NCBI GenBank assembly: GCA_902556405.1
Contig: CACDWF010000001.1
Coordinates: 248,001 to 312,000, forward strand
DNA: 64,000 nt
Origin: an uncultured Alphaproteobacteria bacterium
GTDB lineage: Bacteria > Pseudomonadota > Alphaproteobacteria > Rhodobacterales > Rhodobacteraceae
Direction of reading: 5' to 3'
Notes under the pieces: model-generated
What the model saw: only the letters and a program-made list of their open reading frames with translations
The model's database searches: none
What the model was told of the DNA's origin: nothing
Position numbers and translations under genes: made by a program
Shown: positions 14,709 through 33,916 of the stretch, piece by piece
How positions within the stretch are numbered: position 1 is the first letter of the stretch
How the letters are laid out: each line of letters starts with the position of its first letter

Positions 14709-14849
14709 TCTTCCACTTAAAGCCTTGTAAGTAGCTGATTTTTCTCTACATTTTTATATAAGCATGTTAATATAGTCAATAATAATTGGCATATCATCAA
14801 TTTATTGTTTCAAGCTGTTTCGATACGTTTCATGAAAGCCAATCAGAAA

Positions 14850-14869: not shown

Positions 14870-14876
14870 TGAATAT

Positions 14877-16079
14877 ATGTTAACAGATACTAAAGCAAAA
14901 AAAATTAAGCCTAACGATAAACCGTTAGCCGATGGAACAGTAATAGGGTTGAGACTTTTGAGTGCTAACAAAAATGGACGTGGAAAGTGGAAGCTTAGAT
15001 TTGTTTCTCCAACAACTCGTAAACGCAGAGATATGGGGCTAGGAACCTATCCAGATATTAGTATTACTCAAGTCCGAGACTTAGCTAATGCAGCAAGAAA
15101 GAAAATAGCTGAAGGCCTTGATCCTATAGAAGAAAAAGCAAATGAAAATAATAATGATGAAAATGATCAACCGATCAATTTTCAAACAGCTGCCAATTTA
15201 GTCTATAACGATCTTAGTCCTGGATGGAAAAATGAGAAACACAAAGCCCAATGGATAAGCACAATAAAGCAATATGTAAATCCGTCTTTAGGTTCAAAGA
15301 TAGTCAGTGATTTGAAGCCTAAGGATTTTGCACAGGTACTTCGTCCTATTTGGCTTACTAAACCAGAAACTGCTTCTAGAGTTAAACAAAGGTGTAGCAC
15401 GATTATAAAATGGTGTTACGCAAATGGGCATGTATCAGGTAATCCTATTGATGCAGTAGACTTTCTTCTCCCAAAGCAACCTAGTGCCTCAATAAGAACC
15501 AAACATTTTCCTTCCATGCCTTGGGTAGATATTCCGTCTTTTGTATCGAATAATCTTTCCAATAACTCAAGTATTGGCAGTATTCTTTTAAATTTCGTTA
15601 TTCATACTGCTGCGAGGTCGGGCGAAGCGCGCTTTGCGAAGTGGGATGAGATAGATTTCAAGAATAAGGTCTGGACAATTCCAGCAACAAGAATGAAAGG
15701 GAAGCAACAACATCGAGTACCTCTAACTTCTTTTTTATTAGATATTTTGAATTTACAAAAAAAGGTTAGTAACCAAGGCTTTATCTTTAAAACGGCAAAG
15801 GGATCGGCATTAAGTGACATGGCTCTGACAAAAATATTAAGAGATAAAAAAGCAAGTAGTGATGAAAAGGGACGACACGCGACGGTTCATGGATTTAGAG
15901 CATCTTTTCGAAACTGGGCCTCAGAGAATGGGTATGCTAGAGACTTAGCCGAAAGAGCTCTTGCTCATGTAATAAAAAGTAAAAGTGAAGCGGCTTACCA
16001 TAGAACTGATCTACTTGAAAATAGAAGAAGGATGATGGCAAAATGGTCAGACTTCCTAGTATCTGAGCAAAAAAAATAA
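14877..16079 (+). CDS. tyrosine recombinase/integrase with Arm DNA-binding domain
   Basis: A 400-residue P4-type integrase. The N-terminal arm-binding domain (DUF4102 type) starts MLTDTKAKKIKPNDKPLADG and contains the usual 'MGLGTYPDISITQVRDLANAARK'-like pattern. A core-binding SAM-like domain follows. Catalytic residues: Arg in TAARSGEARFAKWDEID, Lys in TRMKGKQQHRVPLT, HxxR in HGFRASFRNWASE, His in RALAHV and the nucleophile Tyr in AAYHRTD. The ATG at 14877 is chosen because homology begins there; the frame is open to 14805, but that part is translated from the repeat region. It should insert and excise the island at tRNA-Ser. Confidence 0.92.
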   Translation: MLTDTKAKKIKPNDKPLADGTVIGLRLLSANKNGRGKWKLRFVSPTTRKRRDMGLGTYPDISITQVRDLANAARKKIAEGLDPIEEKANENNNDENDQPINFQTAANLVYNDLSPGWKNEKHKAQWISTIKQYVNPSLGSKIVSDLKPKDFAQVLRPIWLTKPETASRVKQRCSTIIKWCYANGHVSGNPIDAVDFLLPKQPSASIRTKHFPSMPWVDIPSFVSNNLSNNSSIGSILLNFVIHTAARSGEARFAKWDEIDFKNKVWTIPATRMKGKQQHRVPLTSFLLDILNLQKKVSNQGFIFKTAKGSALSDMALTKILRDKKASSDEKGRHATVHGFRASFRNWASENGYARDLAERALAHVIKSKSEAAYHRTDLLENRRRMMAKWSDFLVSEQKK

Positions 16080-16131
16080 AAAAATTTTTAAAAATTTTTT
16101 CGTATAAACTATTGTTTTTATTGAATTAACT

Positions 16132-16151
16132 TACCCTAACTTGTTAGGGTA
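16132..16151. promoter_or_regulatory. perfect 9-bp dyad, candidate operator
   Basis: TACCCTAAC and GTTAGGGTA are separated by TT, between the integrase stop and the AlpA-like gene. A perfect dyad at this place fits an operator for the small regulator or an excisionase site; it has no T-run, so it is not an obvious terminator. Confidence 0.5.
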
Positions 16152-16256
16152 CGATCGGTTAATTTTTACTATTGATTTATTTAAAATGTTGGCCCAAATA
16201 TCTATAAAAAGAGGAAATTTGGTACGTATTGAGACATAAAAATAGCTGGTGATTTC

Positions 16257-16523
16257 ATGGAAAGAAAAGATTTGAAAATGTCGAGAATTCCACTCAGAAT
16301 TCAAAATTTTGGTGATCTTCCGAACGAAGCTTTAATCAGCGCAAAAGAGATTTGTTTGCTGTCAGGTAGAAGTAGAAGCAGTCTTTGGAGAGATGTCAAA
16401 AAGAGTAGATTACCTAAACCGATATCAATAGGCTCCAATTCCGTTCGTTGGCCTGCTGGCACGGTAAGAGAATATTTGTTTGGAGGAACCAGGAGTAAGA
16501 ATGTGCCTTATGACAGAACCTAA
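16257..16523 (+). CDS. AlpA-like helix-turn-helix regulator/excisionase
   Basis: An 88-residue protein whose middle, LISAKEICLLSGRSRSSLWRDVKKSRLPKP, is the MerR/AlpA-type winged helix, ending in the usual VRWPAGTVREYL. Such proteins in P4-like islands control integrase expression or excision. A second ATG at 16278 (MSRIPLRIQ) is an alternative start; neither has a strong ribosome binding site. Its end overlaps the start of the primase gene. Confidence 0.82.
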   Translation: MERKDLKMSRIPLRIQNFGDLPNEALISAKEICLLSGRSRSSLWRDVKKSRLPKPISIGSNSVRWPAGTVREYLFGGTRSKNVPYDRT

Positions 16524-17427
16524 AAATTCACAAGTGGTAACTGAAAAACTTGGAGTAAATAAAAATACTATACCTGACTTATTAAAGGATCGTGATCAGT
16601 GGATTGTTTGGAAGGCTTTGAAGAAGGATAATGGAAACAAAGTTTCAAAGGTTCCCATTGATCCAATTTCAGGAAGAAATATTAATGCTCTTAATAAAAA
16701 AAACCATATGGATTTTGATACGGCTTTTCACAAATATGAAATTGGGTCTGGCAGTGGCATTGGCTTTGTTCTTACCGGTGAGCCTCTAAAAATATCGAAC
16801 AAGTTATTTTATATCGTCGGAGTTGATATCGATAACGTAATCGATAGCCATGCTAAAAATTGTGTGCGTAAATTAGTTAAAAATATTGGTAGCTATTGTG
16901 AAATCAGTCCTAGTGGCAATGGGGTAAGGGTATTCGCATTGAGTTCAATACCAGTAGGAAAGGGGCAATCAAACTCTGGAGAAATGTATTATGAAAAAAG
17001 ATTTTTAACTGTTACAGGAAGAGGACCTTACAGAAAGCTAGTTGATGCTTCTAATGTTTTGCAAGGTATTGAAAATCAATGGTGGCCTGCAATTAAAAGT
17101 TGTTTAGAGAATAAATCAGCCTCGGTCACACCAAATTTTTATCCGGAAACTCCTAGAAGGAGAGCTGAGCTATCTGATTTACTGAACTACATAAGCTCTG
17201 ACTGCAGTTATGAGCGCTACCGAGGGGTGGTTTGGGCAATTTTAGGCACAGGATGGCCAGACGCAGAAATTCTTGCAAAAAGCTGGTGTTTGAAGGCACC
17301 AGACCGATATAACGAAAATGATTTTTTTTCATTAGTTAAAAGCTTTAATGAAAATCATGAGAACCCAATAACTGTTGGGTCATTAAAATTTTGGGCAAAA
17401 GAAGCCGGTTGGGGTGGAGATGAATAA
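16501..17427 (+). CDS. island primase with PriCT_2 domain
   Basis: About 308 residues. The N-terminal part has the primase/polymerase signature order: DQWIVWKAL, KVPIDPISGRN, a GIGFVLTG strand, VGVDIDN (metal-site Asp-x-Asp) and SPSGNGVRVF. The C-terminal part (LLNYISSDCSYERYRGVVWAI...NENDFFSLVKSF) is a PriCT_2 domain. It should prime replication of the excised island together with the SF3 helicase that follows. Starts at 16501 or 16510 are both possible. It overlaps the helicase gene by 8 nt, implying coupling. Confidence 0.78.
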   Translation: MCLMTEPKNSQVVTEKLGVNKNTIPDLLKDRDQWIVWKALKKDNGNKVSKVPIDPISGRNINALNKKNHMDFDTAFHKYEIGSGSGIGFVLTGEPLKISNKLFYIVGVDIDNVIDSHAKNCVRKLVKNIGSYCEISPSGNGVRVFALSSIPVGKGQSNSGEMYYEKRFLTVTGRGPYRKLVDASNVLQGIENQWWPAIKSCLENKSASVTPNFYPETPRRRAELSDLLNYISSDCSYERYRGVVWAILGTGWPDAEILAKSWCLKAPDRYNENDFFSLVKSFNENHENPITVGSLKFWAKEAGWGGDE

Positions 17428-18331
17428 TAGTAGTATTGCTGCTTTGCAAGAACTTCAAAAGGAATATTGTCTGTGTAGTTTTAATAGCCAAATAAAAGTA
17501 GGAAGACTGAAAGAAATTGAGGAAATTAAAAAAGGAAAAAGAAAGGAAGACATAAATGCTTACTCGAGAGCAGATGGAAAATTACTCATGCAAAGATACC
17601 TTGAACAACTGCCGTATAGCATAAAAACAGAGGAGATAATAAATGAATTTTTTATATCTCCTCAAACTACAAACTATAATGAAGTCATTTTTTCGCCAAC
17701 AGCATGCAACAAAGAAACACTCAATTACTGGGTTCCTCCTAAACCAAAGGCAGTAAAAGGGTCTACTTCTATTATAGGCTCGTTCTTAAGAGAGGTGATA
17801 TGTGATAATGATCCCGATCTTTTCTCTTATTTAACAAGATTTCTAGCGCATATGGTCCAAAAACCTTCGGAGAAACCTGGAGTTATGCTGATTTTATTAG
17901 GGGGTCAAGGGATTGGTAAGGGAACATTTTTCAATTTAATTCAAAAGATATGGGATGGTTCCACTTTGCTTGTCTCGGATGTTGAACATGTAATTGGAGG
18001 CTTCAATGGAGCGCTAGAAAGAAATTTTGTCGTGTGTATGGATGAGGCAATTTTCAGTGGACAAAAAAAAGCTATAGAACGTCTAAAGTCTTTTGTTACT
18101 GAACCTATGATACAAATAGAAAAAAAATATGTACCACGGCAAGAGATACGATCTCTACATAGATTTATAGCTTCGTCAAATCAGAAACATTTTGGAAATG
18201 TTGATTTAGATGATCGGAGATTTTTGTTTTTTAGAGTAAGCGAAAAATATAAAGAGGATACTGCTTACTGGAATAATTTGTATGACGCTTTGAACGATAA
18301 AAAAAATTGGAGGCAGTCTTCTACAGATTAA
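17420..18331 (+). CDS. SF3 helicase (DUF5906/primase C-terminal type), frame-broken N-terminal part
   Basis: About 303 residues with the superfamily 3 helicase order: Walker A GGQGIGKGT, Walker B FVVCMDEA, motif C HRFIASSNQ and arginine-finger region DLDDRRFLFF. It should unwind the island origin. GGGGTGGAG precedes the ATG at 17420. The frame ends at 18331 with an unrelated tail (RQSSTD) right after a run of eight A (18299-18306); the expected C-terminal part continues in the next frame at 18307. It is either a programmed -1 shift or a one-base indel. Confidence 0.8.
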   Translation: MNNSSIAALQELQKEYCLCSFNSQIKVGRLKEIEEIKKGKRKEDINAYSRADGKLLMQRYLEQLPYSIKTEEIINEFFISPQTTNYNEVIFSPTACNKETLNYWVPPKPKAVKGSTSIIGSFLREVICDNDPDLFSYLTRFLAHMVQKPSEKPGVMLILLGGQGIGKGTFFNLIQKIWDGSTLLVSDVEHVIGGFNGALERNFVVCMDEAIFSGQKKAIERLKSFVTEPMIQIEKKYVPRQEIRSLHRFIASSNQKHFGNVDLDDRRFLFFRVSEKYKEDTAYWNNLYDALNDKKNWRQSSTD

Positions 18332-18741
18332 AAAATACGGATTTAAGTAATTTCAACGTTCGAAAAAAACCGATCACAAAAGAATTATTTTCTCAAAAGC
18401 TTAAATCTTCTTCGGGTTTTGGGCGATATTGGTACGAAGTGTTAAATCTTGGTTATTTAGATATCGGGTCGAATTCTTCTCCATATATAAAATTTGATGA
18501 GTCTTTTATAGATTCTCAAAAATTAATTTTTTACTATGATGATTTTTATAAAAGAACTCGACAATATAATCCGCGTCAATTTTCAGAAGTTAGAGAGGGC
18601 CTAAGTGAGTGGTGTCCTTCAGCTAAGCATACAAGGAAGAAAATAGATGGGGATCATAAAAGAGGATACCAGTTACCAAATATCTTAGATGCTCGAAAAG
18701 ATTTTGAGTCTAATATTGGCTCTAAAATATCATGGAATTAA
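18307..18741 (+). CDS. C-terminal part of the SF3 helicase in the -1 frame
   Basis: Reading from the TTG at 18307 gives LEAVFYRLKNTDLSNFNVRK and continues for 144 residues. This is the segment that normally follows the ATPase core in this family ('...LLYYLLNRDLSGFNPR.VP.T' pattern). No independent ribosome binding site suits it, although GGAGG occurs inside the first codons. It is most likely made as a fusion with the upstream frame through slippage on A8, or has been separated from it by a single-base change. Confidence 0.6.
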   Translation: MEAVFYRLKNTDLSNFNVRKKPITKELFSQKLKSSSGFGRYWYEVLNLGYLDIGSNSSPYIKFDESFIDSQKLIFYYDDFYKRTRQYNPRQFSEVREGLSEWCPSAKHTRKKIDGDHKRGYQLPNILDARKDFESNIGSKISWN

Positions 18742-18876: not shown

Positions 18877-19173
18877 GTGTCACAAACTAAAGAAAAACAT
18901 ATTTTATTGGCTGGAGGGCGTATCCATGCCTTTAGATGCCAAGCTCTATCAAAACGTAGCAAACAGCAATGTAGAAAAGCAGCTTCTAAGGGAAAGCGTG
19001 TTTGTATGTTCCATGGTGGCAAATCAACTGGCCCCGTAACATCTCTTGGCAAGCAACGCTGTGCAAATGCTAGAACTATTCACGGGAGAGAAACTAGATC
19101 AATACGTATTAAGCGAGCGCAGAAGTTATCAGAGATGAAATTTTACTTTTCTATTATGAAAATGTACTTTTAA
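18877..19173 (+). CDS. HGGxxxGP small island protein
   Basis: A 98-residue basic protein with the pattern CQALSKRSKQQCRKAASKGKRVCMFHGGKSTGPVT. This is recognisable as a short family common on mobile elements, with 'C...S.R...QC...A..G...C..HGG.S.GP.T.' The three Cys and the His suggest a zinc site and the basic content suggests DNA or RNA contact; the function is unknown. Start is GTG at 18877. Confidence 0.65.
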   Translation: MSQTKEKHILLAGGRIHAFRCQALSKRSKQQCRKAASKGKRVCMFHGGKSTGPVTSLGKQRCANARTIHGRETRSIRIKRAQKLSEMKFYFSIMKMYF

Positions 19174-19198
19174 TTTATAACTCTAGTTAGGATAAAAA

Positions 19199-19402
19199 AT
19201 GGGAGATGGGAAAGAACCGGATAAAACATCAAAAGTAATGATCGTAGGTTTCGCTGTTATTCTAATTCTCGGTGGTGCATATGGGCTTTCTAATAATGAC
19301 TTGGGATGGTCAGCCATTATATTGGGTTCTTTAATACTTCTATATTATATTTTTCCAAGTAACTTAACAAAACAATTTAAAAGAAAGAAACTTGTCGAAT
19401 GA
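19199..19402 (+). CDS. two-TM small membrane protein, 67 aa
   Basis: A charged N-terminus (MGDGKEPDKTSK) is followed by TM1 (VMIVGFAVILILGGAYGL), a short polar turn, TM2 (SAIILGSLILLYYIF) and a basic tail (KQFKRKK), so both ends are probably cytoplasmic. AGGATAAAA precedes the ATG. No family recognised. Confidence 0.6.
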   Translation: MGDGKEPDKTSKVMIVGFAVILILGGAYGLSNNDLGWSAIILGSLILLYYIFPSNLTKQFKRKKLVE

Positions 19403-19440
19403 AATATTCTATTTTTATTCAGTTTTGGTAATTTCTTTTT

Positions 19441-19581
19441 ATGAATACTTTAAGATATTTTTTATTTTATATAATAATCATTTTAAGCCCTAATATTGTC
19501 TCAGCAAGTGACTTGAAAGAGGAATTTGGGCTTAAATATATTGAAAAAGATGATTGGGATAAGCTGAAAGAAAACTTATAG
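19441..19581 (+). CDS. small exported protein, 46 aa
   Basis: MNTLRYFLFYIIIILSPNIVSASDL is a typical signal peptide with VSA-S as possible cleavage site. About 22 charged residues follow (EEFGLKYIEKDDWDKLKENL). It would release a small periplasmic peptide. No ribosome binding site stands out. Confidence 0.45.
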   Translation: MNTLRYFLFYIIIILSPNIVSASDLKEEFGLKYIEKDDWDKLKENL

Positions 19582-19813
19582 TTTCACTAGGAAGTTTATA
19601 AATACTGCCTCCACTTTAATTATGTTAAATTAGTTCCGCTATTAATGTTTTTTTTATTTCTATCTGGTTGTTGGTGGCAAGAGATGTTGTGTAATTTTCG
19701 CTATGAGAGATGAACACAATAACAGTAGAATGTTTTATGATGAATGCACGGCGATTAATGATCCGGCGACAAGGGGCTGGTTACTTGAACAATAAAACCA
19801 AATTGAGTTAGAA

Positions 19814-20101
19814 ATGACAGCTATTCGATATACAGTGATATTGTTAATTTTGTTACTGTGTATAGTGTATGGCTCATATGTCTATTTCGAATGGGGATCA
19901 GCAAAGGAATTTCAAAAGGATGTTGATTGGCTTTTTTGGGCTTGTGTGAAAATACTACAAGATTGGGGGAAGTGGACAGGTCTTGGCTATAATCTTTTAA
20001 ACATTATTATATTTATAATTCTTCAGCCGCTACTTATCTTAATATTCTTCGTTCTCTGGAGAATTGAGGTATCAAAGAGAAAAAGACGAGATGGTTTCTA
20101 A
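19814..20101 (+). CDS. two-TM protein, paralogue of 25725-26024
   Basis: A 95-residue membrane protein with TM1 at residues 7-27 and TM2 at about 62-83 (NIIIFIILQPLLILIFFVLW), ending in a basic tail. Between them lies WLFWACVKILQDWGKWTGLGYNL. The last half matches the protein at 25725: 'W.C..IL..WG..TGLGYNL.NI.IFI.LQP.LILIFF.LW..E'. Family not recognised. It overlaps the caspase gene start by 11 nt, so the two are probably co-translated, and the paralogue pairs with a small two-Cys protein in the same way. Confidence 0.75.
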   Translation: MTAIRYTVILLILLLCIVYGSYVYFEWGSAKEFQKDVDWLFWACVKILQDWGKWTGLGYNLLNIIIFIILQPLLILIFFVLWRIEVSKRKRRDGF

Positions 20102-22709
20102 TTTTAAAAATTTACGTCCATACAATGCAGCACAATCTTTAGCTTGGATAAAGAGGAGTCGAATATTAACCGTTCTTATCATGACTTTGAGCATAATGTG
20201 CTTTGGCTTTACTTCATATGCTTCCGAAGAACTGGATTTAGTAAAACTTAAAAGGTCTGCAGAGGCTGGGGTTCCAAAAAGCCAGTTGGAGTTGGCACTG
20301 ATATATTCTGAGGGAAGAAACGGTGTCAGGAAAAATACTGAAGCGGCTATTAAGTGGTTTCGTTTGGCTGCATCTACTGGAAATTCTGATGCACAAGTAC
20401 TCCTTGCTGATGCAATACGAAGAGGTCTAGGAACACAAAAAGATATAAACGAAGCTATCATTTGGTACAAAATGGCAGCAGAAAATGGAAACCCAATGGC
20501 CTTTGCAAGCCTTGGTCAAATTTATTTAGAGGGTGAGGGCGTAGTAAAAGATATTACAGAGGCGCTTGAATGGCTTAAACGCGGTGCAGAAGCTGATAAC
20601 CCCTATTCACAAATGCGGTTAGGAGACAGTTATTTAGCGGGCCAAGGTGTTGAACGCAGTAAAGCAGAGGCTGAAAAATGGTACGAAAGAGCGATGACGA
20701 ACTTAGAGCACCAGCGTCTTTTAAGATTAGGGAATAACTATCTATTTGGGAAAGGTGTTGAAAGAAATTTAGTAACGTCTTTCAAAAATTTTGCTGAGAC
20801 GGCGAAGGGGGGAAATGCTGAAGGTCAGTTTAGAGTTGGGGATGCGCTGTACAAAGGTCTCGGAATTCCAAAAAATAAAAGAGATGCAATACAGTGGTAC
20901 AGTAAGGCCGCTAATAAAGGTAACATCTTTGCAAAACATGCCCTGGCACAGGCATATTTTAATGGTGATGGAGTTAGACAGGATAGAGTAAGGGCATTAG
21001 AAATGCTTGAGGAAGCGGCAGATGAAGGACATATCGACAGCTTATTTGCCCTTGGTCAGCTCTATCTACAAGGCGATTTTGTTGAGAAAAATATTAATAA
21101 AGCCTTCACCTTGTTTGAAAAGGCGGCAAAGCAAGGAGATGCAAATAGCCAATATGACATCGGGCTTTTTTTAAAAACAGGTATGGGTGTTCAACAAAAT
21201 GTAAAAGAGGCTTTCAAATGGTTTATGCTTGCCTCTGATCAAAATAATCCTGACGCACAACTAGAATTAGGATTGGCTTTCAGCACTGGGAGTGGCGTTG
21301 AGAAAAACTTTTCAGAAGCATACAAATGGTTTCTTATATCTGCGGAGGGAGGAAATAAGATCGCGCAAAACGAAGTTGGTAGAGCTTTAAGGGATGGATT
21401 AGGAGCCCCTAAAGATATGCAACAGGCTTTTGGTTGGTTTGTTAAATCCGCTAATCTTGGTTATAGAGAGGCAATGACAAATGTGGCGCTAGCCTATCTT
21501 GAAGGCCAAGGAGTTATCAAAAACATCCAAGACGCAATAGAATGGTTCCGAAAAAGCGCTGATCAGGGTGATGCTAACGCTGAATACCATCTCGCAAGAA
21601 CGTATTCTTCAGGAGTACATATTTCTCCTAACCCGACAGAGGCATTTAAATTGATGCAGAGCGCTGCAGTAAATGGGCTCGTTGTGGCGCAAAGGGAGTT
21701 AGGCGAGTTTTACAGCAAAGGAGTGGGTACAACAAAAAATCCATCCATGGCATTCGAGTGGCTTAATAAGGCCTCTGAGAACGATGACGGTCGTGCCCAT
21801 TATTTACTTGCTCAGGCATATTTCAGGGGAGATGGAACGCAGAAAGATAGTAATATGGCCCTCCTTAAAGCTCAAAAAGCTTTATCCCTAGGAATTTCAG
21901 AAGCATCTTTTTTAGTGGAGGTTTTGTCATCTTCAGCGGATATAAAAAGTAATCCTGTCCTTGATGAGGGTAAAGAGATAGAGTTTGGTAATTACTATGC
22001 TCTTATAATTGGAAATGATGATTATCAAAACGTCGATAAATTAAACACAGGTGCTGTTGATGCGAAGGCTGTAAATGAGATACTTAAAACAAAATTCAAT
22101 TTTAAAACCGAATTGCTGATAAACCAATCTCGAACACAGATTTTGGATACATTATATAGTTACAGAACCAAACTTACTGAAAGTGATAACTTATTAATTT
22201 TTTATTCTGGCCACGGTGAAAAAGATAAAAAGACTAATAGAGGTCACTGGCTTCCAGTTGATGCAGACCCTGAGAAGAAGTACACATGGATTTCCAATAG
22301 TGCTATCTTAGACGAAATAGAAGCCTCAGATGCCAAACATATTTTACTCGTTATTGACTCATGTTTCTCAGGAATATTTGCAGAGAAACGTCTAAAGGAG
22401 AAAAACGGGGTAAAATCAATTCAAAGAGAGCTCCTCGAACAGAAAAGTCAATTGAAGTCACGATGGGTAATGACTGCTGGTGGTGATGAACCTGTCTTTG
22501 ATGCTGCTCAAGGAGAAAATTCGATTTTTGTTAAGCATTTTTTGTTAGCACTTACTAAAGTTTCACAACCTGTTACTGCAATGCAACTTTTTGATCAAAG
22601 CATTAAAAACAGCGTTGAGCTAAATAGTAATCAAGTGCCTACATATACCCAAATTCAAAATGTAGATAGTCGAGGTGGCGAATTTATCTTTGTGCGCACT
22701 AAAAACTGA
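20091..22709 (+). CDS. Sel1-repeat protein with C-terminal caspase (peptidase C14) domain
   Basis: An 872-residue exported or membrane-anchored protein. A hydrophobic segment (ILTVLIMTLSIMCFGF) near residues 24-40 is followed by about 15 Sel1/TPR-like repeats ('A...W..KAA..G...A...LG..Y..G.GV..'). A caspase-fold domain runs from about 635 (YYALIIGNDDYQN). The catalytic dyad is intact: His708 in FYSGHGE and Cys758 in VIDSCFSG. The orientation of the segment would place repeats and protease in the periplasm if it is a signal peptide. The ATG at 20091 overlaps the upstream two-TM gene; the gene is convergent with the anti-sigma-like gene, their 3' ends overlapping by 11 nt. Probably a stress- or infection-triggered protease; substrate unknown. 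Confidence 0.9.
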   Translation: MVSNFKNLRPYNAAQSLAWIKRSRILTVLIMTLSIMCFGFTSYASEELDLVKLKRSAEAGVPKSQLELALIYSEGRNGVRKNTEAAIKWFRLAASTGNSDAQVLLADAIRRGLGTQKDINEAIIWYKMAAENGNPMAFASLGQIYLEGEGVVKDITEALEWLKRGAEADNPYSQMRLGDSYLAGQGVERSKAEAEKWYERAMTNLEHQRLLRLGNNYLFGKGVERNLVTSFKNFAETAKGGNAEGQFRVGDALYKGLGIPKNKRDAIQWYSKAANKGNIFAKHALAQAYFNGDGVRQDRVRALEMLEEAADEGHIDSLFALGQLYLQGDFVEKNINKAFTLFEKAAKQGDANSQYDIGLFLKTGMGVQQNVKEAFKWFMLASDQNNPDAQLELGLAFSTGSGVEKNFSEAYKWFLISAEGGNKIAQNEVGRALRDGLGAPKDMQQAFGWFVKSANLGYREAMTNVALAYLEGQGVIKNIQDAIEWFRKSADQGDANAEYHLARTYSSGVHISPNPTEAFKLMQSAAVNGLVVAQRELGEFYSKGVGTTKNPSMAFEWLNKASENDDGRAHYLLAQAYFRGDGTQKDSNMALLKAQKALSLGISEASFLVEVLSSSADIKSNPVLDEGKEIEFGNYYALIIGNDDYQNVDKLNTGAVDAKAVNEILKTKFNFKTELLINQSRTQILDTLYSYRTKLTESDNLLIFYSGHGEKDKKTNRGHWLPVDADPEKKYTWISNSAILDEIEASDAKHILLVIDSCFSGIFAEKRLKEKNGVKSIQRELLEQKSQLKSRWVMTAGGDEPVFDAAQGENSIFVKHFLLALTKVSQPVTAMQLFDQSIKNSVELNSNQVPTYTQIQNVDSRGGEFIFVRTKN

Positions 22710-24033
22710 ATGAGGATCCTTTAGGATAAAGAGAGTAGACTTTCTCAGTTTTCCAATCACCATCCTCATCGATAGCAACTCTATCAACAACACCATCTTC
22801 GTTTTCATCCAACAGCCATCTGAATGAATACTTCCCTTCATTATCAATTGATACCAACCCAAGACCATCTATAACTTTGTTGTCGTCCCGATCTATAGAC
22901 ATCTGCCATCCTGTATTTTCTTTATTTCGATGGGATATTATATTTGCATACCCACTATCATTTACATCTATATAAAAGCTCCCGTCTCTTTGCCAAATAG
23001 CTGTATTTGGATCGCCGATCTCATTAGCATTCTCTGATGCATTATCTGCTATTGATAAAATCGACTTATCAATGATTTTATTACCCAACTCTATTTTCAC
23101 CGTTCTGGAAAATAAGGAGCTTGGTATCGCCATAAAATTACTTGATGCCGTTTTTAAAAGATTGTCTCCATTTTTTAGAATTGTGAATCCAATTATCTGA
23201 GACTCAACTTTCTCCTCATTATCATTAGGTGTATGAATATACTGAATGTAGTCTAGACCAACGGGGCCAATAACTTCATATGGGCCAAGCGATTTAGTTT
23301 CACCTTTCTTTATAGGCTTTCTATCGAGGAGGACCTGTTTTTCTCCTGTTGAATCTTGATAAATTAAAGTTATGAGGCCAGAGCTTAATCCCTTTAAATC
23401 TATTCCAAGCTCAGCGCCAGTCACAACAAAATCTCCATTCTCTAATTTATATGAAAAATCTTTTTTAAGATTAACAGTAATATCAATTGTGCCTTTTATT
23501 TCAGTGGATAATGTCCGTCGTTTATCAGGCTTCCGCTCAAGACCCTTTTTTTTCAGAGATCTTTCTTTGTCTAAAAATGCACCCACATTAGCAAGTTTAA
23601 TTTTGTTTTCCAATTGATCAGAACGCTCACCTGCTTGGAAGGAAGAATAAAATTCCCTGGCCAAGCTTTCATTACTTGTTGTCTGCAATTGATAAGCGCC
23701 TGTCCCAATGAAAATGCCAAAAGCGGCTATTGAGGCTGCTATTGCTCCACGACCAAAGTTGCCAAAGCTGAAACCAGCCCGTTTCTTTTTTTCGAAGCTT
23801 TCGTCCTTTTCAATTCTTTTCTTTCGAAGTTTTGCATAGAGGAGTTTGGGCATTTCTTTCTTGTCTTTAGTGTGCTTTAGCATCACTGTATTTGCCAATT
23901 GAAACTTATAAATTCGTGCTTCTAATTCTTTATCTTTTACGCGAGCATTGCTTATATTGCTGGTAAGTTCAGGACCGGCATCGCCATCCACATATTGCAT
24001 TATTTGTTCATCTGTAAAGTCCATTCTACTCAT
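22699..24033 (-). CDS. membrane anti-sigma-like protein with DUF4384-like and EF-hand-like parts
   Basis: A 444-residue single-pass protein. The N-terminal cytoplasmic part (MSRMDFTDEQIMQYVDGDAG) resembles zinc-free anti-sigma domains. A TM lies at about 98-118 (GAIAASIAAFGIFIGTGAYQL). The periplasmic part has a stretch like DUF4384 (LITLIYQDSTGEKQVLLDRK...GPYEVIGPVGLDYIQYI), a domain often joined to bacterial caspases, and then calcium-loop-like D-x-D-x-DG repeats near the end (DVNDSGYAN, DRDDNKVIDG, DENEDGVVD, DEDGDW). Its ATG overlaps the sigma-factor stop (ATGA). It is proposed to hold the sigma factor and sense an envelope signal, perhaps with calcium; that is inference. Confidence 0.7.
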   Translation of the reverse strand: MSRMDFTDEQIMQYVDGDAGPELTSNISNARVKDKELEARIYKFQLANTVMLKHTKDKKEMPKLLYAKLRKKRIEKDESFEKKKRAGFSFGNFGRGAIAASIAAFGIFIGTGAYQLQTTSNESLAREFYSSFQAGERSDQLENKIKLANVGAFLDKERSLKKKGLERKPDKRRTLSTEIKGTIDITVNLKKDFSYKLENGDFVVTGAELGIDLKGLSSGLITLIYQDSTGEKQVLLDRKPIKKGETKSLGPYEVIGPVGLDYIQYIHTPNDNEEKVESQIIGFTILKNGDNLLKTASSNFMAIPSSLFSRTVKIELGNKIIDKSILSIADNASENANEIGDPNTAIWQRDGSFYIDVNDSGYANIISHRNKENTGWQMSIDRDDNKVIDGLGLVSIDNEGKYSFRWLLDENEDGVVDRVAIDEDGDWKTEKVYSLYPKGSSFSF

Positions 24034-24590
24034 CCCTCATTAGCGCTATGTAATTGTTTATAAAGACAGTTTGAAAATGATTTCTTTGCTCTGGCAAGGA
24101 GAGGTAAGAGGGTTCCAAGTGGCATGCCCAGAAGCTTACTCATTCTTTCGGTTGTCATTGGCTTCCCTGATCGATCATCGCGTCCATTAATTTGCAAATA
24201 GAAAACTTGATATTGTTTTTCACTAAGTTTTTTAAGACAAGTTTCGTACGCTATGTTGGTATAGACTTCTTCTGAAACGTCAACATTGAGATATGCTTCT
24301 GACATGTTTCTGATATCCGTTAGGATAACGTCATAATTTTTTTTACGCCGCCCTTTATCTATGTATATTCTTTCGAGGATCGTACGCGCCCAGGCGAGAA
24401 AATGCTTCCCATCAAATTGGTCCATTTTTTCTATGCATCGAACACACGTATCGTGAACTATTTCTTCCGCTTCACTTTCATTCCTATAACCATTTTTACT
24501 CTGTAGATAAAACATCCTATCAAACAGCTTTTGGTACGAGCCTTTAAGCTGATCTTCAATTAAAACTTGCCAGTTTGTTTTGCGTTCCAA
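24030..24590 (-). CDS. ECF-type sigma-70 factor
   Basis: A 186-residue sigma factor. Region 2 is recognisable: SEAEEIVHDTCVRCIEKMDQFDGKHFLAWARTILERIYIDKGRR. Region 4 holds CLKKLSEKQYQVFYLQINGR...TTERMSKLLGMPLGTLLPLLARAKKSF, with the usual helix-turn-helix. It starts at TTG 24590 with GAGG upstream. It directs RNA polymerase to a stress regulon, probably released by the coupled membrane protein. It is divergent from the small-protein operon at 24722, whose promoter lies in the shared 130-nt spacer and is a natural target. Confidence 0.85.
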   Translation of the reverse strand: MERKTNWQVLIEDQLKGSYQKLFDRMFYLQSKNGYRNESEAEEIVHDTCVRCIEKMDQFDGKHFLAWARTILERIYIDKGRRKKNYDVILTDIRNMSEAYLNVDVSEEVYTNIAYETCLKKLSEKQYQVFYLQINGRDDRSGKPMTTERMSKLLGMPLGTLLPLLARAKKSFSNCLYKQLHSANEG

Positions 24591-24721
24591 TGCTGAAACC
24601 TCGAATCATTTCTTCTAAAATCTTTAGAAAAAATAGGACAAACTTTTTTTTTTAACAACTGCAATAAAATCCACTTTCCACTCGTTAAGTACTTTTGATC
24701 GCACAAAAATAGGTGAAAGAA

Positions 24722-24964
24722 ATGGATAAATTTATAGTCTTTGCGACAATCCTTTTTCAAGGTGAAGTAAAACAGTTGGAATATAAGGCAATCGATTTTT
24801 CAACGAAGGAAGAGTGTTATGAATATATGACCAAACATGACAAGCACTTTGGTGAGGTTGTAGATAACATACGACAAAGCATCCAACCTACGGGTAGACT
24901 TCTTGTTATTGGTTGTTCCGAGCGGAATAAAATTTTTCGCAATGACAACGGTGAACTGAATTGA
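24722..24964 (+). CDS. two-Cys small protein, family member A
   Basis: An 80-residue protein starting MDKFIVFATILFQGEVKQLEYK. The family pattern is a hydrophobic N-terminal strand, LEYK, 'F...EEC..YM', and a C-terminal 'G.LLVIGCSER'. Two conserved Cys lie about 36 residues apart. GGTGAAAG lies before the ATG. Five members occur in 24.7-27.5 kb. I do not recognise the family. First gene of the plus-strand operon facing the sigma gene. Confidence 0.75.
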   Translation: MDKFIVFATILFQGEVKQLEYKAIDFSTKEECYEYMTKHDKHFGEVVDNIRQSIQPTGRLLVIGCSERNKIFRNDNGELN

Positions 24965-24970
24965 ATTGAA

Positions 24971-25216
24971 ATGGGTCTTTTTATTATTTGGGCAACCGTG
25001 GCCTTTAATGGTGAGGCCACTAACTTAGAGTATCAAGGTGGTTTGTTTAAAACACACGAAAAGTGTATTGAGTATTTAACGAAAGAAGAAAGTTACGTTT
25101 TAGAAACTCTCAATAAATATATTAATGATAAATATCCAAATGGAAAATTACTCATGTTAGCGTGTGGCGCTAGATCTAATTTTGAAAAATATAAGGGATT
25201 AGATGAAACAATATGA
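24971..25216 (+). CDS. two-Cys small protein, family member B
   Basis: An 81-residue protein, MGLFIIWATVAFNGEATNLEYQ, with the same layout as member A: 'F.THEKCIEYL', 'LETLNKYI' and 'PNGKLLMLACGAR'. It starts 6 nt after member A stops and its stop overlaps the next small frame as ATGA. Function unknown. The N-terminal hydrophobic stretch is too short for a TM and may be a beta strand. Confidence 0.75.
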   Translation: MGLFIIWATVAFNGEATNLEYQGGLFKTHEKCIEYLTKEESYVLETLNKYINDKYPNGKLLMLACGARSNFEKYKGLDETI

Positions 25217-25317
25217 ACACGGATGCAGTATCTTCGTCTGGGGTATCCCCTTTAGGAGAAATTGAGATAGAAAGAGTAACTCATACGCACAAAGATAAGT
25301 TTTCATGCAATGTGTAA
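25213..25317 (+). CDS. 34-aa small frame coupled to member B
   Basis: Starts at ATG 25213 overlapping the stop of member B (ATGA) and reads MNTDAVSSSGVSPLGEIEIE to a C-terminal FSCNV. Only the coupling supports it. No family recognised. Confidence 0.35.
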   Translation: MNTDAVSSSGVSPLGEIEIERVTHTHKDKFSCNV

Positions 25318-25414
25318 GATCAAAATGGAATTTTTAAAATAATTTTTTAAAACACAATAATACGTCGCACTCATTCGTTCAGTGGATTAGGTAACGAGAA
25401 ATAGGGAGCAAATT

Positions 25415-25702
25415 ATGAGCATTACGCTTGAAAGTAATTTTTCACATCATGCGATAAAGCGATCACAGCAAAGAGGAATAAGACCTTGGGTTGTAAATTT
25501 TGTTTTGGAATACGCAGACAAATATAAGCACGCAAACGAAAGCTGCATCTCACAATTTATCTCTAAACGTAGGGTTAAAAAACTCATTCAAGAAAATGTT
25601 TTGTCACCTGCGAAGGCAGCGCTAATAGACGGAGTGGTCGTGATTGCTAAGGATGAAACCATAGTAACTGTCTTCCATAAGAAAATGCGCTTTCGTAAAT
25701 AA
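25415..25702 (+). CDS. DUF4258-like protein (RelE/BrnT-like fold suspected)
   Basis: A 95-residue basic protein: FSHHAIKRSQQRGIRPWVVNFVLEYADKY at the start and VVVIAKDETIVTVFHKK at the end, the order seen in DUF4258 proteins ('HA..R...RGI....I', then 'VVV..D..IVTVF'). Some are toxins or ribonuclease-like, but no antitoxin partner is evident here. A good GGGAGCAAA ribosome binding site lies before the ATG. It belongs to the small-protein operon. Confidence 0.65.
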   Translation: MSITLESNFSHHAIKRSQQRGIRPWVVNFVLEYADKYKHANESCISQFISKRRVKKLIQENVLSPAKAALIDGVVVIAKDETIVTVFHKKMRFRK

Positions 25703-25724
25703 CTCAAGAAAAGGAAAGAGAATA

Positions 25725-26024
25725 ATGGAAGTTAAAATCCCAATAAAAAAGCCTCCGGTAATCGACACTTTGCCTAACAGTCTAAGTACAGCTGAGGAAC
25801 AGCTTAATATGCTTTTGAAGGATAAATTCTTTGGTTTTACTAATTTTATAGATCTGGTTTTTTGGTGGTGTGTGGACATTTTACACGTATGGGGGGATAT
25901 TACTGGTCTTGGCTATAATCTTATAAACATCTTAATTTTTATCCTGCTACAACCCGCTCTGATTTTAATATTTTTCACATTATGGATCGTTGAACGTACA
26001 CGAAGAGGGGGGTCTCATGGTTAG
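25725..26024 (+). CDS. two-TM protein, paralogue of 19814-20101
   Basis: A 99-residue protein with a cytoplasmic-type polar N-terminus (about 45 residues), then FWWCVDILHVWGDITGLGYNL and TM2 NILIFILLQPALILIFFTLW. The similarity to the gene beside the caspase covers the last 60 residues and is strong, so the two loci are parts of one system. AAGGAAAGAG lies before the ATG. It overlaps family member C by 8 nt, as the paralogue overlaps the caspase gene. Confidence 0.75.
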   Translation: MEVKIPIKKPPVIDTLPNSLSTAEEQLNMLLKDKFFGFTNFIDLVFWWCVDILHVWGDITGLGYNLINILIFILLQPALILIFFTLWIVERTRRGGSHG

Positions 26025-26295
26025 TACCACTACATGGATTGTTTTCGCGCAACTCGTTATCTTCAACCCTCAGAGCAATGGAAATGAAAATGAGCTTACT
26101 GAATTTAGACAAAGAGAGTTTCCAACGCAAAGCCAATGCTACCAGTTCTTGCACGACAACTATGTGTTTCTCGATACAGCTCTAAAAAGACATGCGGAAA
26201 GACGAAATGGCCGCGTAATAATCTTGGGCTGTGGAGATCGAGCAGAACTAAGTGAGATCTCGTCAGACTATGACCGTCAATACGGACGAGGATGA
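26017..26295 (+). CDS. two-Cys small protein, family member C
   Basis: A 92-residue member: WIVFAQLVIFN, LTEFRQREFPTQSQCYQFL, LDTALKRHAERRNGRVIILGCGDR. The two Cys and the terminal 'GCGDR' match members A and B. The ATG at 26017, inside the end of the two-TM gene, follows GAGGGGGG. Family unknown. Confidence 0.72.
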   Translation: MVSTTTWIVFAQLVIFNPQSNGNENELTEFRQREFPTQSQCYQFLHDNYVFLDTALKRHAERRNGRVIILGCGDRAELSEISSDYDRQYGRG

Positions 26296-26325
26296 AAACA
26301 TTTTAAAAAAGAAAAGGAGAAGAAA

Positions 26326-26538
26326 ATGCCATTTGATGAACATAATTATGAATATGTAAGAGATAATAGTTTTGCTCAAAAAAGAGCACTTGTTGCTGAT
26401 AGCAGGTTTAAAATTATTCAAAAGAGACAAACGAAAAAACGATTTGATAAGCCAATTGCATATTTCTTAATAGGTGCGACGCTTTTTTTCTTGTTTATTC
26501 AGATAGGAATAATCACTCCGATGACTTTGCATTCATGA
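26326..26538 (+). CDS. single-TM small protein, 70 aa
   Basis: About 45 polar, basic residues (MPFDEHNYEYVRDN...KRQTKKRFDK) precede one TM (PIAYFLIGATLFFLFIQIGII). AAAAGGAGAAGAAA gives a strong ribosome binding site. The stop overlaps the next ATG (ATGA). No family recognised. Confidence 0.62.
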   Translation: MPFDEHNYEYVRDNSFAQKRALVADSRFKIIQKRQTKKRFDKPIAYFLIGATLFFLFIQIGIITPMTLHS

Positions 26539-26714
26539 ATTGGAAATACATAATAGCTGCTACAGTTCTAGTATATTTCCTAAGGGGAGATGAGTGGTTT
26601 CTATATTTTGCTGCCTATGCAGATTATTGCTATGAATTTCAAGGTATCAACAAAACAACAGAAGACCTTGGCAACTTTTTTTCATGCTTCTCTAAAGCAG
26701 CAACTTTTCAATAG
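26535..26714 (+). CDS. small membrane protein, 59 aa
   Basis: Starts MNWKYIIAATVLVYFLRGDEWF with an N-terminal TM or signal anchor, then an exported-looking part with two Cys (ADYCYEF, FFSCFSKA). It is coupled to the upstream gene through ATGA. No family recognised. Confidence 0.5.
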   Translation: MNWKYIIAATVLVYFLRGDEWFLYFAAYADYCYEFQGINKTTEDLGNFFSCFSKAATFQ

Positions 26715-26725
26715 CTAGTTAGATC

Positions 26726-26980
26726 ATGGCAAATATTTGGTATTTGGTTGCTATAATGTTTGGAGTTCATGAAGATGGAAAATTAGATGTTTACATTTTT
26801 AGGGAACCAAAAAACTCTACTGGTTTTTATTCAATCGGTTCTTGTCGAAATTTTGTTAGTGAAAATCCAACTTACTTAATTGAAACCCTTAGAAAGCAAT
26901 ACGGGGATCGACCTATGAAACAACTTTTATGTGCCCCCGTAGATAGTGTTAAGCAATTACTTGAAACCACGAAGCAATAA
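26726..26980 (+). CDS. two-Cys small protein, family member D
   Basis: An 84-residue divergent member: MANIWYLVAIMFGVHEDGKLD, then FYSIGSCRNFV, LIETLRKQYGDRPMKQLLCAP. Both Cys and the LIETLR helix are kept; the terminal Gly-x-Cys is altered to LLCAP. It follows the 59-aa gene by 11 nt. Confidence 0.68.
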   Translation: MANIWYLVAIMFGVHEDGKLDVYIFREPKNSTGFYSIGSCRNFVSENPTYLIETLRKQYGDRPMKQLLCAPVDSVKQLLETTKQ

Positions 26981-27049
26981 AGGACTTTAGGAGCGCAATA
27001 TTTTGGAATATCCACTCGTTTAGTTAAGAGAAAGCGGGAAAGGATTTAT

Positions 27050-27463
27050 GTGAACAACCAAGGTGTATCCATATTTATAGTTTTTTTGGCGCTACTTGCT
27101 TTAAGTGGTTGCATGACTACAGACCAAACCCCCAATGGTTTTGCTGAGATGGAAAAAGAAGATATAAGGAGCCTTGAAAAAGAACGATCGGAAAAATCGC
27201 AAAATAAATCTATTCAATACTTTGTGGTTGCACAATTAAGATCAGTTAATGACCAGCCACAAGAATTTCTTGAGTTTAAGAGTAAACGTTTCAGTGATAA
27301 GAGTAGCTGTGAGAAATGGATGATTTCAAATAACAGACTACTAAACGAAAGCCTTCATAACCATGTCACAAGTAGAAAAAGGGGGTATTTCGTTGATAAT
27401 ATTAAATGTCTGAGAACTGCATTCTTTGCAAATGGATTCGATGAACAAGGCACAAGTATTTAG
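27050..27463 (+). CDS. lipoprotein carrying the two-Cys domain, family member E
   Basis: A 137-residue protein from GTG 27050 (GGAAAGGA upstream). A signal peptide with lipobox ALSGC puts the acylated Cys near residue 21. A charged linker (EKEDIRSLEKERSEKSQ) follows, then the family domain: IQYFVVAQL, FLEFKSKRFSDKSSCEKWM, LLNESLHNH and a terminal 'IKCLR'. This member shows that the domain can work in the periplasm at a membrane, close to where the anti-sigma sensor part and caspase are expected. Confidence 0.7.
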   Translation: MNNQGVSIFIVFLALLALSGCMTTDQTPNGFAEMEKEDIRSLEKERSEKSQNKSIQYFVVAQLRSVNDQPQEFLEFKSKRFSDKSSCEKWMISNNRLLNESLHNHVTSRKRGYFVDNIKCLRTAFFANGFDEQGTSI

Positions 27464-27492
27464 AAGATCATTGAAAATAATGGGAAACAATC

Positions 27493-27591
27493 ATGAAGAA
27501 CAAAAATAAACATGATATAGTTTTTGTAGTTGCCTTGGGGTACTTCGCGATCTCATTTTTCTTTATAAAATTATCCAAAAAAAATGCTTAA
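27493..27591 (+). CDS. single-TM microprotein, 32 aa
   Basis: MKNKNKHDIVFVVALGYFAI, then SFFFIKLSKKNA: a basic start, one TM and a basic end. It is the last frame before the convergent zorD gene, whose stop is 3 nt away. Supported only by pattern and position. Confidence 0.4.
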   Translation: MKNKNKHDIVFVVALGYFAISFFFIKLSKKNA

Positions 27592-27593
27592 AA

Positions 27594-30500
27594 TCATATG
27601 ATATGATTAGGCCATAGACACAAATCTTCTCTTGAAACAAGCTTGACGTTTTCTTTCTTAGCAAGTTTTTTAGCAGAGTTTGTGAAACCCCTATAGTTCG
27701 TTACTACAACACAGTGAGAATTCTTAAGATCAGGGTAATTTTTCCGAGCATTTAGAACCTCTTTTATTGCACCCTCGCTCAGGTTTTGGTCTGGTGAATT
27801 TGTGACTTTTGCCTGAATAATAACGTGCTCACTTGTTCGTTCAGTATGCGTTAAAATTTTATCAGCTCCTCCATCTCTTGATATACTGGTATTAGCACTT
27901 CTCCAAGGCCCCTTCTTCGCTTGGTTGCCTATCCAATCTTCAAATTGTTGACCAGTCATTCTATCTATTTCGTTCAAGTCAATCTTATCTTCGTTAGAGT
28001 TTATAAATTCTAGAATACGACTACTTTCTTCCTCGTTACTTTTTGCAGGCATTAGAACGCCTTGAAATAGTCTTCTTTTTCTGATCATTATATTATTGAG
28101 AATACAGTCAAAACTTTTTTCTTTAAATTGCGAGTGAATTGCCAAAGGTATGTGAATAGTGACATCTTTTTGTTGTCCAATCCTATATATTCTGTCGTTA
28201 CACTGCTCTTCGACAGCTGGGTTCCACCATCTTGCCAAGTGAATAACATGTGTTGCGGCGGTCAAAGTAAGGCCGACACCTGCAGATTTTGGGCCCAAAA
28301 TTAAAAGATCAAAAGACCCATTATCAATATTTTCTTGAAACTCTCTCACTATTTGTGCTCTTCTAGGCACTGAAACATTGCCATTAATTATATCAACTTT
28401 TTCAAGCTTAAACTTCTTTTTAAAAAAGGTTTGAAGAAGGTATTGCAACTCAACTCTTTCCAAAAATACTAAAGCCTTGCCTCCGCTCGTTTGTATATCA
28501 CTTAGTATTTCAGTTACCTTTTTTATCCTGGCAGATCTAAATAAAAAATCCTCAAGATCATTATCCTCAGAACCTGCTAGCTCTAATTTTTCAGGGTGTA
28601 GAGATACAGATCTAAGTCCATCTATTTGTTTGAAGGAACTAGATCTAATTCCGTTCTGCTTTGCATAATTTAAATCATCAATAAGCTGAGTGTATGCCTG
28701 GTCTTGAATTCCATCCATTTCTATCGGATATTTTTCGTATCGCTTCAAGGGTAAATCAGAAGCTGCTTCCGATTTCATGCGTCTAATTCCTATAGGTGGA
28801 AGAGCTTTTTTGTTACTTTTATTTTTTCCTTCTTCAAAAATCCTTCTATAAAGTTCCTTAAGCATATTTTCATCTGGTGAATTAAATTTATCGGTAAAAT
28901 TTTTCAAAGTGCCTAAATATCCTGGAACAAGGGTATCAAGAATTGCCCAGAGGTCGGAAAGGGAGTTTTCAACTGGTGTACCAGTTAAACCTATTTTAAA
29001 ATCAGCTTTCAAGCTTTTGGCTGCATTATTTTGGAGTGTCCCAGGGTTTTTGATGTTTTGTATCTCATCAAAAACAACAGCGGAAAAGGGAACTTGCCCA
29101 AACGATTGCTGATAGTTGGTTAATGTAGTGTAAGTTGTTAATACCCAGGTGGGGTAAGTTCTATCCTCATCACTTAATGAACTGAAGTCAAGTCGCGATA
29201 TTTCATTTGCATCGTCCAGATCAAGACCAGAAAGCCCACTTCTATATTCCTTTAAGCGTGACCCATAAGCCTCTATTTTAATTCCGAGTTGATCATCATT
29301 CATGTGAATATCAACTTCTTCTTGCCAATTTCTAAGCAGTGAAGTGGGAGCTACTATTAATATAGGAGCTAAAGGTTTTCCAGTTTTGTCTTTTTTGTAT
29401 TGTTGTAGCCAGGCAAGAAAACTTATAGATTGTAGAGTTTTTCCAAGCCCTTGGTCGTCTGCATTAAGTATTCCAGGCAAACCATTTAAATACGCATCTA
29501 TCATCCACTCTAAAGACTGTTCCTGATGTGCTTTTAATTTCGATGTTATGCTTTCTGGAGCTTCCTTTTTTGTAGATGCACCCCTCGGAACATAGTTTTG
29601 AACATAATCAAGATCTTCAAAATTTTCTTTTACGATAAGAACGTGTGTTTGTTTTTCGACACTTTTTGACGTACTTTCGGATCCAGTTGTTTGAGCTTTT
29701 TTCAACCCGTCAAGTTGATTGAGAACCTCGAGTGTATTTTTGTTTGCTTCAATTTTTGTATTATTAAACTCAATGCTTGTTTCACCCTTTTCAATAGCTT
29801 TTGTTACTTTTTCTATAAGAGTTTCAACCTCCTCGGGTTTAATGGGAACATATTTATCGCCAATTTTTACGCCAAACGTTTCTGGCACCCATCCATTGTC
29901 TATATATTTGACATAGGGAAGTGCTGGCGGGATCCATAACCCTAATTTTATAACTCGTTCTGAGAATTCCCGCGTCTCTTGGAATAATTCTCCAATGCGT
30001 GTTTCGAGTTCTTGTTGTTGGTTCAAGGTTTCTTCCAATCTAATATTATCAGTTGAAGTTTCACTCGCCGCCTTGTTTTTATTTTCCAAGTATTCGGTAA
30101 GAGCTCGCTTAGGATTCCTAGCAAAGTCCTCCCGAGACTCTGGGCTACTGTTTTTCTTCTGTTTGACTAGTTCCAATGCTTCATACAAATCGTCTTCGAT
30201 GAGCAAATATTCGTTCTTACCAACAATATAAGTCTTTTTTACTTTAGGAAAATGGTCGAAAGATTGATTGCCGTGTTCAAACCTAAGCGTTTGATTATCG
30301 TTAAGAAGGCTATCATTCTCAGAAAGTATTGATGTGTCTTCAAAATCCTCATTATCTTGCCCTACTATTTTTTCAGGTTTTTTTTGAAATAACACGGGGT
30401 TAAAAGTTATGCCATCTGATTGCCTTTCGACTCTCAGCGAAAATGAGTTGGCCGATTTAATATTTATCTCAGCTAGTGAACCTTGCAGATCAGCAATATC

Positions 30501-31070: not shown

Positions 31071-31072
31071 AG

Positions 31073-33914: not shown

Positions 33915-33916
33915 TA

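Follow-up and report, generated by a model that had tools for sequence, protein, structure and literature searches.

A linked ECF sigma factor, probable membrane anti-sigma factor and Sel1-caspase as a candidate transcriptional switch in a putative alphaproteobacterial defence island

We found in a 64,000-nucleotide stretch of DNA from an uncultured member of the Rhodobacteraceae (GenBank assembly GCA_902556405.1, contig CACDWF010000001.1, positions 248,001 to 312,000; hereafter the window) one cassette, at 19814-27463, which unites an extracytoplasmic function (ECF) sigma factor, a probable membrane anti-sigma factor, a Sel1-caspase, two paralogous two-transmembrane (two-TM) proteins and a small-protein operon. 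On the plus strand, the two-TM protein TM1 (19814..20101), with an extra N-terminal hydrophobic segment, lies upstream of the caspase gene (20091..22709, alternative TTG start at 20064) and overlaps it. The caspase gene converges with an 11 bp overlap on the minus-strand gene of the probable membrane anti-sigma factor (22699..24033), which in turn overlaps by 4 bp the gene of the ECF sigma factor, sigma A (24030..24590, minus strand, TTG start). A first-pass annotation of the letters alone had described both the coupling of the sigma gene to a membrane-protein gene and the Sel1-caspase gene facing the latter, and both are borne out. It had let the cassette begin at 18877; the conserved part begins at about 19814, and the 18877 gene, which matches phrog_3678 and phrog_6177 (function unknown), sits after integrase and primase/helicase genes. 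All genes named in that annotation are real, but a family of five small open reading frames (ORFs) and three promoter-like elements had been overlooked.

These elements and ORFs make up the right half of the cassette, which is encoded on the plus strand. The putative sigma-A promoter element P1 (24662..24690) is followed by the small proteins s1 (24713..24964) and s2 (24971..25216). P2 (25351..25383, exact pattern) precedes a DUF4258-like protein (25415..25702; phrog_6182 at E=7e-7, Pfam DUF4258 sub-cut-off), the two-TM protein TM2 (25725..26024), s3 (26017..26295), a small protein with one hydrophobic segment (26326..26538), another small protein (26535..26714) and s4 (26726..26980). P3 (26996..27024) stands before s5 (27050..27463), a lipoprotein-type protein with a lipobox-like LSGC. 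The ORFs s1 to s5 (24713, 24971, 26017, 26726 and 27050) are members of a single divergent family, in which two cysteines are invariant across 24 sequences, and a family search of their own genome found five members, all within the cassette. The predicted model of s3, a beta-beta-alpha-alpha-beta fold with a mean pLDDT of 75, had no PDB match at E<=0.001. TM1 and TM2 are 58% identical across 62 residues, which confirms the two-TM paralogues noted in the first pass. Candidate effectors are these two proteins and the two-Cys family.

Linkage and conservation of these genes can be read from the related genomes. Strong matches to the anti-sigma factor, the sigma factor and the full-length caspase fell in the same 7 of the 101 relatives searched in total, all from the window's own genus, which comprises 22 genomes of 58-91% completeness. 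The neighbourhood search suggested in the first pass thus found the trio linked in seven of these 22 genomes (form A) and a diverged trio in two more (form B, genomes G008 and G017). Six relatives, all uncultured Alphaproteobacteria, bear AG- isolate names, which we take to denote marine single-cell genomes. The order from TM1 to s5 is kept in all seven form-A loci. TM1 is whole in six of them, the copy in locus L060 being split over two frames; s2 is present in all seven, s1 in six (without a match in L063), the 26326 and 26535 proteins in six each (without matches in L061) and s4 in four. Between the small operon and s5, L061 has a 155-aa frame, and in L060, L062 and L063 inserted genes separate s5 from the other small genes. 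This cargo includes a ZorA-like protein in L060 (E=3.5e-6), a DEDDh/RNase_T exonuclease and an ADP-ribosylglycohydrolase in L062, and an ankyrin protein in L063; several inserted proteins match nothing in family scans that covered 5/5 inserted genes of L060, 4/6 of L062 and 1/1 of L063. The L060 cargo (806-6173, minus strand) consists of five genes directly behind the small-protein operon, which encode the ZorA-like protein, two membrane proteins and, as judged by eye, one OmpA/MotB-like and one von Willebrand-like protein.

Beyond these loci, weaker matches were seen for the anti-sigma factor in 4 genomes, for the sigma factor in 4 and for the caspase in 13. The weak caspase matches, which include G008 and G017, cover the Sel1 or the caspase part only. 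Weak sigma matches in other genera were rejected or downgraded as instances of the same system: G053 has a sigma/anti-sigma-like pair (by eye) without a caspase, the G063 contig is only 3.1 kb long, and G094 and G096 were viewed with flanks of about 1.5 kb. Pairing with an ECF sigma factor as a general trait of alphaproteobacterial C14 caspases was likewise rejected. Of the six caspase-domain loci seen in other genera, L074-L079, two lie on contigs shorter than 7 kb; a combined sigma profile, which does detect six ordinary ECF loci, found no sigma frame at any of the six.

The caspase combines 15 Sel1 stretches with a C14 domain (PF00656, E=3.3e-21), and His708 and Cys758 are unchanged in all seven orthologues (counted from the ATG at 20091; 717 and 767 in the 881-aa frame), in agreement with the intact dyad that had been read from the sequence. 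The form-B caspase also has a C14 domain (E=8.6e-22) and a dyad seen by eye, and the Pfam domains listed in the caspases of both forms are the repeats and C14. All five caspases looked at, three of form A and two of form B, have signal-peptide-like N-termini as judged by eye and hydropathy. Because of these N-termini and the hydrophobic segments of the anti-sigma factor, an exported caspase would lie on the same side as the sensory part of the anti-sigma factor. Of the defence models in PADLOC, the caspase matches just PtuA and a generic caspase, and it scores sub-cut-off (66.9 of 140 bits) with the NCBIfam model of the EACC1-associated caspase.

Sigma A was recognized as an ECF sigma factor by the superfamily model TIGR02937 (E=2.7e-13; 49.9 bits, over the cut-off of 42.9) and by regions 2 and 4, with Sigma70_r2 over its cut-off (E=2.5e-8) and region 4 below; none of the remaining 24 models shown (of 47) reached its cut-off. 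In sigma B of form B, this pattern is reversed, with region 4 over and Sigma70_r2 below the cut-off. A PDB profile search with sigma A gave two sigma chains at E 0.004-0.007. The partner protein comprises an N-terminal helical domain, a beta-rich domain and Asp/Asn-rich C-terminal loops, and a hydrophobic segment above 1.6 on the hydropathy scale was found in 4/5 of these proteins looked at. It has no family match in the profile libraries and no match at E<=1 in a PDB profile search. Its predicted model is poor (mean pLDDT 41, with helices of pLDDT 70-88 in residues 1-40), and a fold assignment was dropped because the model is too poor for structural matches to count. Two details of the earlier description did not hold. 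The DUF4384-like part is weak at best, since the window protein has no Pfam DUF4384 match at E<=1 and the best PF14326 score, 13 bits against a cut-off of 27, came from one of six genomes, inside the G007 anti-sigma factor; among the calcium-binding families of Pfam, none matches the calcium-loop-like repeats. From gene coupling and architecture, this protein would likely hold the sigma factor.

The regions before s1 and s5, once aligned, revealed a common bipartite element of the CAATA-N15-TCGTT type. In the window, CAATW-N16..17-CGTTWAGT has 2 matches where 0.01 are expected. Three other patterns were of no help, and the tighter pattern and a matrix were then used: TCGTTWAGT alone has 3 window matches against 0.91 expected, the loose CAAT-N16..19-CGTTWAGT occurs in 21/22 genomes and is unspecific, and an early pattern whose spacer exceeded the right length by one base matched the window 3 times at <=2 mismatches, against 1.47 expected and 0 times in the cassette. 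The matrix, trained solely on 13 P1/P3 sites, finds the untrained P2 in all seven form-A loci, always before the 25415 gene and with scores of 14.1-26.1, and also recovers the P1 of L063, which was absent from training. The element thus stands before all three small-protein units in 7/7 form-A loci, and beyond these three sites per locus the matrix gave a single weak match (9.3, in L060). Six simulated 64-kb sequences yielded 0.17 matches each at scores of at least 13 and none at 15 or above.

Over whole genomes, 25 sites in the seven sigma-A genomes match the tight pattern, 17 of them inside cassettes; the 15 genomes without sigma A have 8 such sites, all of which lie in long frames and score <=13.6. 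In G000 and G010, the cassette sites that were scored have values of 15.1-46.4, and all but P3 are outside long frames; the window P3 falls inside a 160-codon stop-to-stop frame, which fits s5 being read upstream of its start. Two further matches in G002, about 31-34 kb from the cassette, score 22.5 and 27.1. The 22.5 site lies outside long frames and precedes genes for a small Cys protein, a 26535-like protein and proteins of 114 aa and 255 aa. In L205 (8485-10330, minus strand), the distal sigma-A-type element of G002 thus stands before the small Cys protein, the 26535-like protein and a secreted-looking protein with a C-terminus that is SPOR-like by eye. The six other matches in sigma-A genomes look like background: four score <=4.3 in long frames, and two (G000:C18 and G003:C7) are unscored.

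Form B offers a comparison in which the sigma factor itself has changed. Sigma B is 22% identical to that of form A and anti-sigma B 18-20%, in a poor alignment. In G017, the order is a secreted-looking 118-aa protein, sigma, anti-sigma, caspase, TM2, s3-like, 26535-like and 26326-like proteins, with the caspase gene about 20 bp after the sigma/anti-sigma genes in the same operon, as is true of one of the two form-B loci; in G008, the secreted-looking protein accompanies the trio. When 148 relatives were searched with anti-sigma B, G008 and G017 were returned along with a partial match in G002, to the 255-aa protein mentioned above, whose N-terminus is signal-like. The form-B loci carry a different element, TTGGAACT-N15-TCTCTAC. 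In both genomes it stands before the operon of secreted protein, sigma and anti-sigma factor. G017 has a further copy before TM2-s3, and G008 one before a gene pair that encodes a ClpP-like protein (a sub-cut-off NCBIfam match) and a protein in which several segments are hydrophobic. The spacing is identical in these four sites, and an ATG follows each of them at a distance of 19-32 nt. Across the 22 genomes, the pattern has 5 matches and its reversed control 0; the fifth match, in G018, which is without sigma B, has a different spacing.

The same kind of operon thus bears whichever element goes with the resident sigma factor, and this is, at the level of sequence, the strongest evidence for a regulatory link. 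Since element and sigma factor changed together, the neighbouring sigma factor very probably drives the small-protein units. We infer that the bipartite elements at its own locus are promoters of this sigma factor, and the earlier proposal that sigma release turns on the small-protein operon gains strong support from the sequences. The paired change of sigma factor and element also provides a ready genetic handle.

How the sigma factor would be released is less certain. The RpoE-RseA-DegS system combines a membrane anti-sigma factor, a protease outside the inner membrane and sigma-driven envelope genes. We propose, with even confidence for and against, that the cassette is an island-borne, self-contained transcriptional switch in which an exported caspase cuts the anti-sigma factor. 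The anti-sigma factor would keep the ECF sigma factor at the inner membrane, with its sensory part outside. Upon an envelope signal, perhaps phage attack, the Sel1-caspase, which is probably periplasmic and the likeliest protease for this step, would cut the anti-sigma factor, taking the role that DegS has towards RseA. The freed sigma factor would then start transcription at P1 (s1-s2), at P2 (the DUF4258-like protein, TM2, s3, the 26326 and 26535 proteins, s4 and the cargo where it follows) and at P3 (the lipoprotein s5). The outputs may act at the envelope and, with inserted cargo, would probably either give protection from phage or bring about the death of the infected cell. The caspase is placed upstream, as the protease that cuts the anti-sigma factor, because in none of the seven form-A loci does a sigma element scoring at least 9 precede the two-TM/caspase unit and because the caspase looks exported; this placement, too, we regard as evenly balanced. 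A bolder version, which we put forward tentatively, would make the cassette a non-CRISPR innate-immune switch and a regulatory chassis for defence islands. Here, the exported caspase would be the site-1 protease of an ECF anti-sigma factor, the promoter code would be exchanged together with the regulon, and the regulon would consist of the two-Cys family and interchangeable defence cargo, which may include ZorA/ZorB-like motor genes and the ClpP-like protein with its transmembrane partner.

Several observations weigh against the proposed switch. The cutting of the anti-sigma factor by the caspase is an inferred step, and in G017 the caspase gene lies within the sigma-driven operon and could be an output, too. 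The window's own anti-sigma factor has only a marginal hydrophobic stretch at about 95-116 and no segment above 1.6. TM2 was not found in G008, and outputs therefore vary. The form-A loci are related, and their sites are thus not seven independent events; the reversed tight pattern has 5 matches in the 22 genomes. A single genus yielded sigma/anti-sigma relatives of this kind, the two-Cys family was found in 0/384 other sampled genomes of the class, and absences within the genus are uncertain because of the incompleteness of its genomes.

The order of events could also be the one modelled in the first pass, in which an envelope signal releases the sigma factor and this activates the caspase as a downstream killing effector. 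Bacterial caspases are death effectors in other defence systems, and the G017 caspase, which lies behind a form-B element, would be induced there. But the TM1/caspase unit of form A is without an element throughout, none stands on the caspase strand before the G008 caspase, and an exported caspase would be without cytoplasmic targets; a step from sigma release to caspase activation is therefore not supported, and we consider this order unlikely. It is doubtful, moreover, that the cassette is a general envelope-stress response that sits on the island by chance and has no role against phages. A membrane anti-sigma factor, an exported protease and a lipoprotein output do resemble RseA/DegS, and PADLOC gives nothing for the sigma or anti-sigma factor and a generic match for the caspase. 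The distribution is patchy, however, with forms A and B in 9/22 incomplete genus genomes, and the neighbours are variable and include Zorya, AIPR/AbiU-like proteins, the DEDDh exonuclease, the ADP-ribosylglycohydrolase and the ZorA-like protein. In addition, the G000 form-A island (through Zorya) and the G008 form-B island border the same three metabolic genes, for a glutamine synthetase, an aldehyde dehydrogenase and an Fe-ADH, whose proteins are 100% identical between the two genomes.

A further possibility, which we judge improbable, is that the small proteins are phage-derived or phage-facing. TM2 might then be a decoy or a holin-like pore, and the cassette a lysis or abortive switch or part of an element resembling a phage satellite. 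TM2-like proteins of 34-69% identity occur on 55 IMG/VR viral contigs (many of them near-duplicates), endolysin or holin genes are near in 3/8 viral neighbourhoods, and an integrase, a primase part and a DUF5906 helicase lie upstream of the cassette in the window. Against this, TM2-like proteins also occur in 5/384 other class genomes, four phage TM2 copies tested had no PHROG match, and neither the sigma nor the anti-sigma factor turned up in viral contigs. For the two-Cys proteins, a phage origin was rejected, as s3 and s4 had no matches in INPHARED (tblastn) or in IMG/VR pattern scans. TM2 relatives in INPHARED were absent at 1e-3, and no anti-sigma relatives were found in plasmids.

The proposed caspase-dependent switch can be compared with known systems. 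Coupling of a caspase-like protease to an ECF sigma factor has already been described for CRISPR-linked systems and for a few others. According to PMC10028731, Csx29 of the type III-E CASP/craspase system cleaves the sigma inhibitor Csx30, and the locus has three sigma motifs. Our cassette likewise has an ECF sigma factor with several sigma motifs, a probable sigma inhibitor and a caspase-like protease that carries helical repeats, and Csx29-Csx30-CASP-sigma appears to be the closest working parallel. In contrast, the protease here is a C14 caspase with Sel1 repeats that looks exported, while Csx29 is TPR-CHAT; the inhibitor here looks membrane-anchored, and the outputs are a new small-protein family. 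Both caspases match C14 with no CHAT family listed, and no CRISPR gene was found among the proteins scanned, in a search that did not include Cas7-11/Csx30 models. EACC2-caspase systems, as described in PMC8195603 (eLife 2021), also have a caspase gene beside genes for an ECF sigma factor and a repeat protein, there a DUF1822 TPR protein; here, it is the caspase itself that bears the repeats, and a probable anti-sigma factor is present. For the EACC domain, the nearest match is the sub-cut-off EACC1-associated model, and no search was aimed at EACC2. Protease-linked ECF control has also been proposed from gene context for ECF54 sigma factors with CHAT, subtilase or carboxypeptidase neighbours, according to PMC8999054, and RpoE-RseA-DegS is mentioned in PMC10028731.

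Compared with this last system, the caspase would replace DegS, the cassette sits in a variable island and the regulon is local. Because no CHAT family is listed for the protease and the nearest EACC model scores sub-cut-off, we regard the cassette as a variant of the theme of caspase-like protease and ECF sigma factor rather than a member of the craspase or EACC2 families. A literature search, by title or the beginning of the abstract, found no paper on this exact combination. If true, what is new is coupling without CRISPR, across the envelope and with a defined local regulon; and if the caspase cuts the anti-sigma factor, bacterial caspases would be envelope sensors and not only executioners.

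The surroundings of the cassette resemble those of a defence island, as had been noted in the first pass. A type I Zorya system with ZorA-D all matched (27594-36079, minus strand) adjoins it, convergent with s5. The matrix scan found no sigma element before Zorya, which was thus rejected as a regulon member and, lying beside the cassette on the opposite strand, is not part of the switch. The shared borders of the G000 and G008 islands are consistent with a defence hot spot, and the cassette may be mobile. An anti-phage role, to which the Zorya neighbour and the variable cargo point, is plausible and still circumstantial. AIPR proteins, which are related to abortive infection, are encoded at 48474-50543 in the window and beyond s5 in L058.

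Some minor observations concern TM2 outside the cassette. The TM2-like proteins from IMG/VR (loci L147-L201, e.g. L149, L184 and L196) are mostly 54-68 aa long, and in the eight viral neighbourhoods read a terminase-like gene was adjacent in two and a gene that by eye is DNA methyltransferase-like in three. Two of the five TM2-positive class genomes (L113 and L114) have adjoining integrase-like frames by eye, and the other three no obvious phage gene. Solo copies in G009 (L104) and G014 (L105) lie near DNA cytosine methyltransferase-like genes, again by eye. In the window itself, the tyrosine integrase, PriCT-2 primase part and DUF5906/VapE-like helicase left of the cassette (14805-18741) form a satellite-like integrated element. 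At 43601-45688, a large protein unites DksA-type domains, AIPR_N and a sub-cut-off MerR-like match in an unusual mix.

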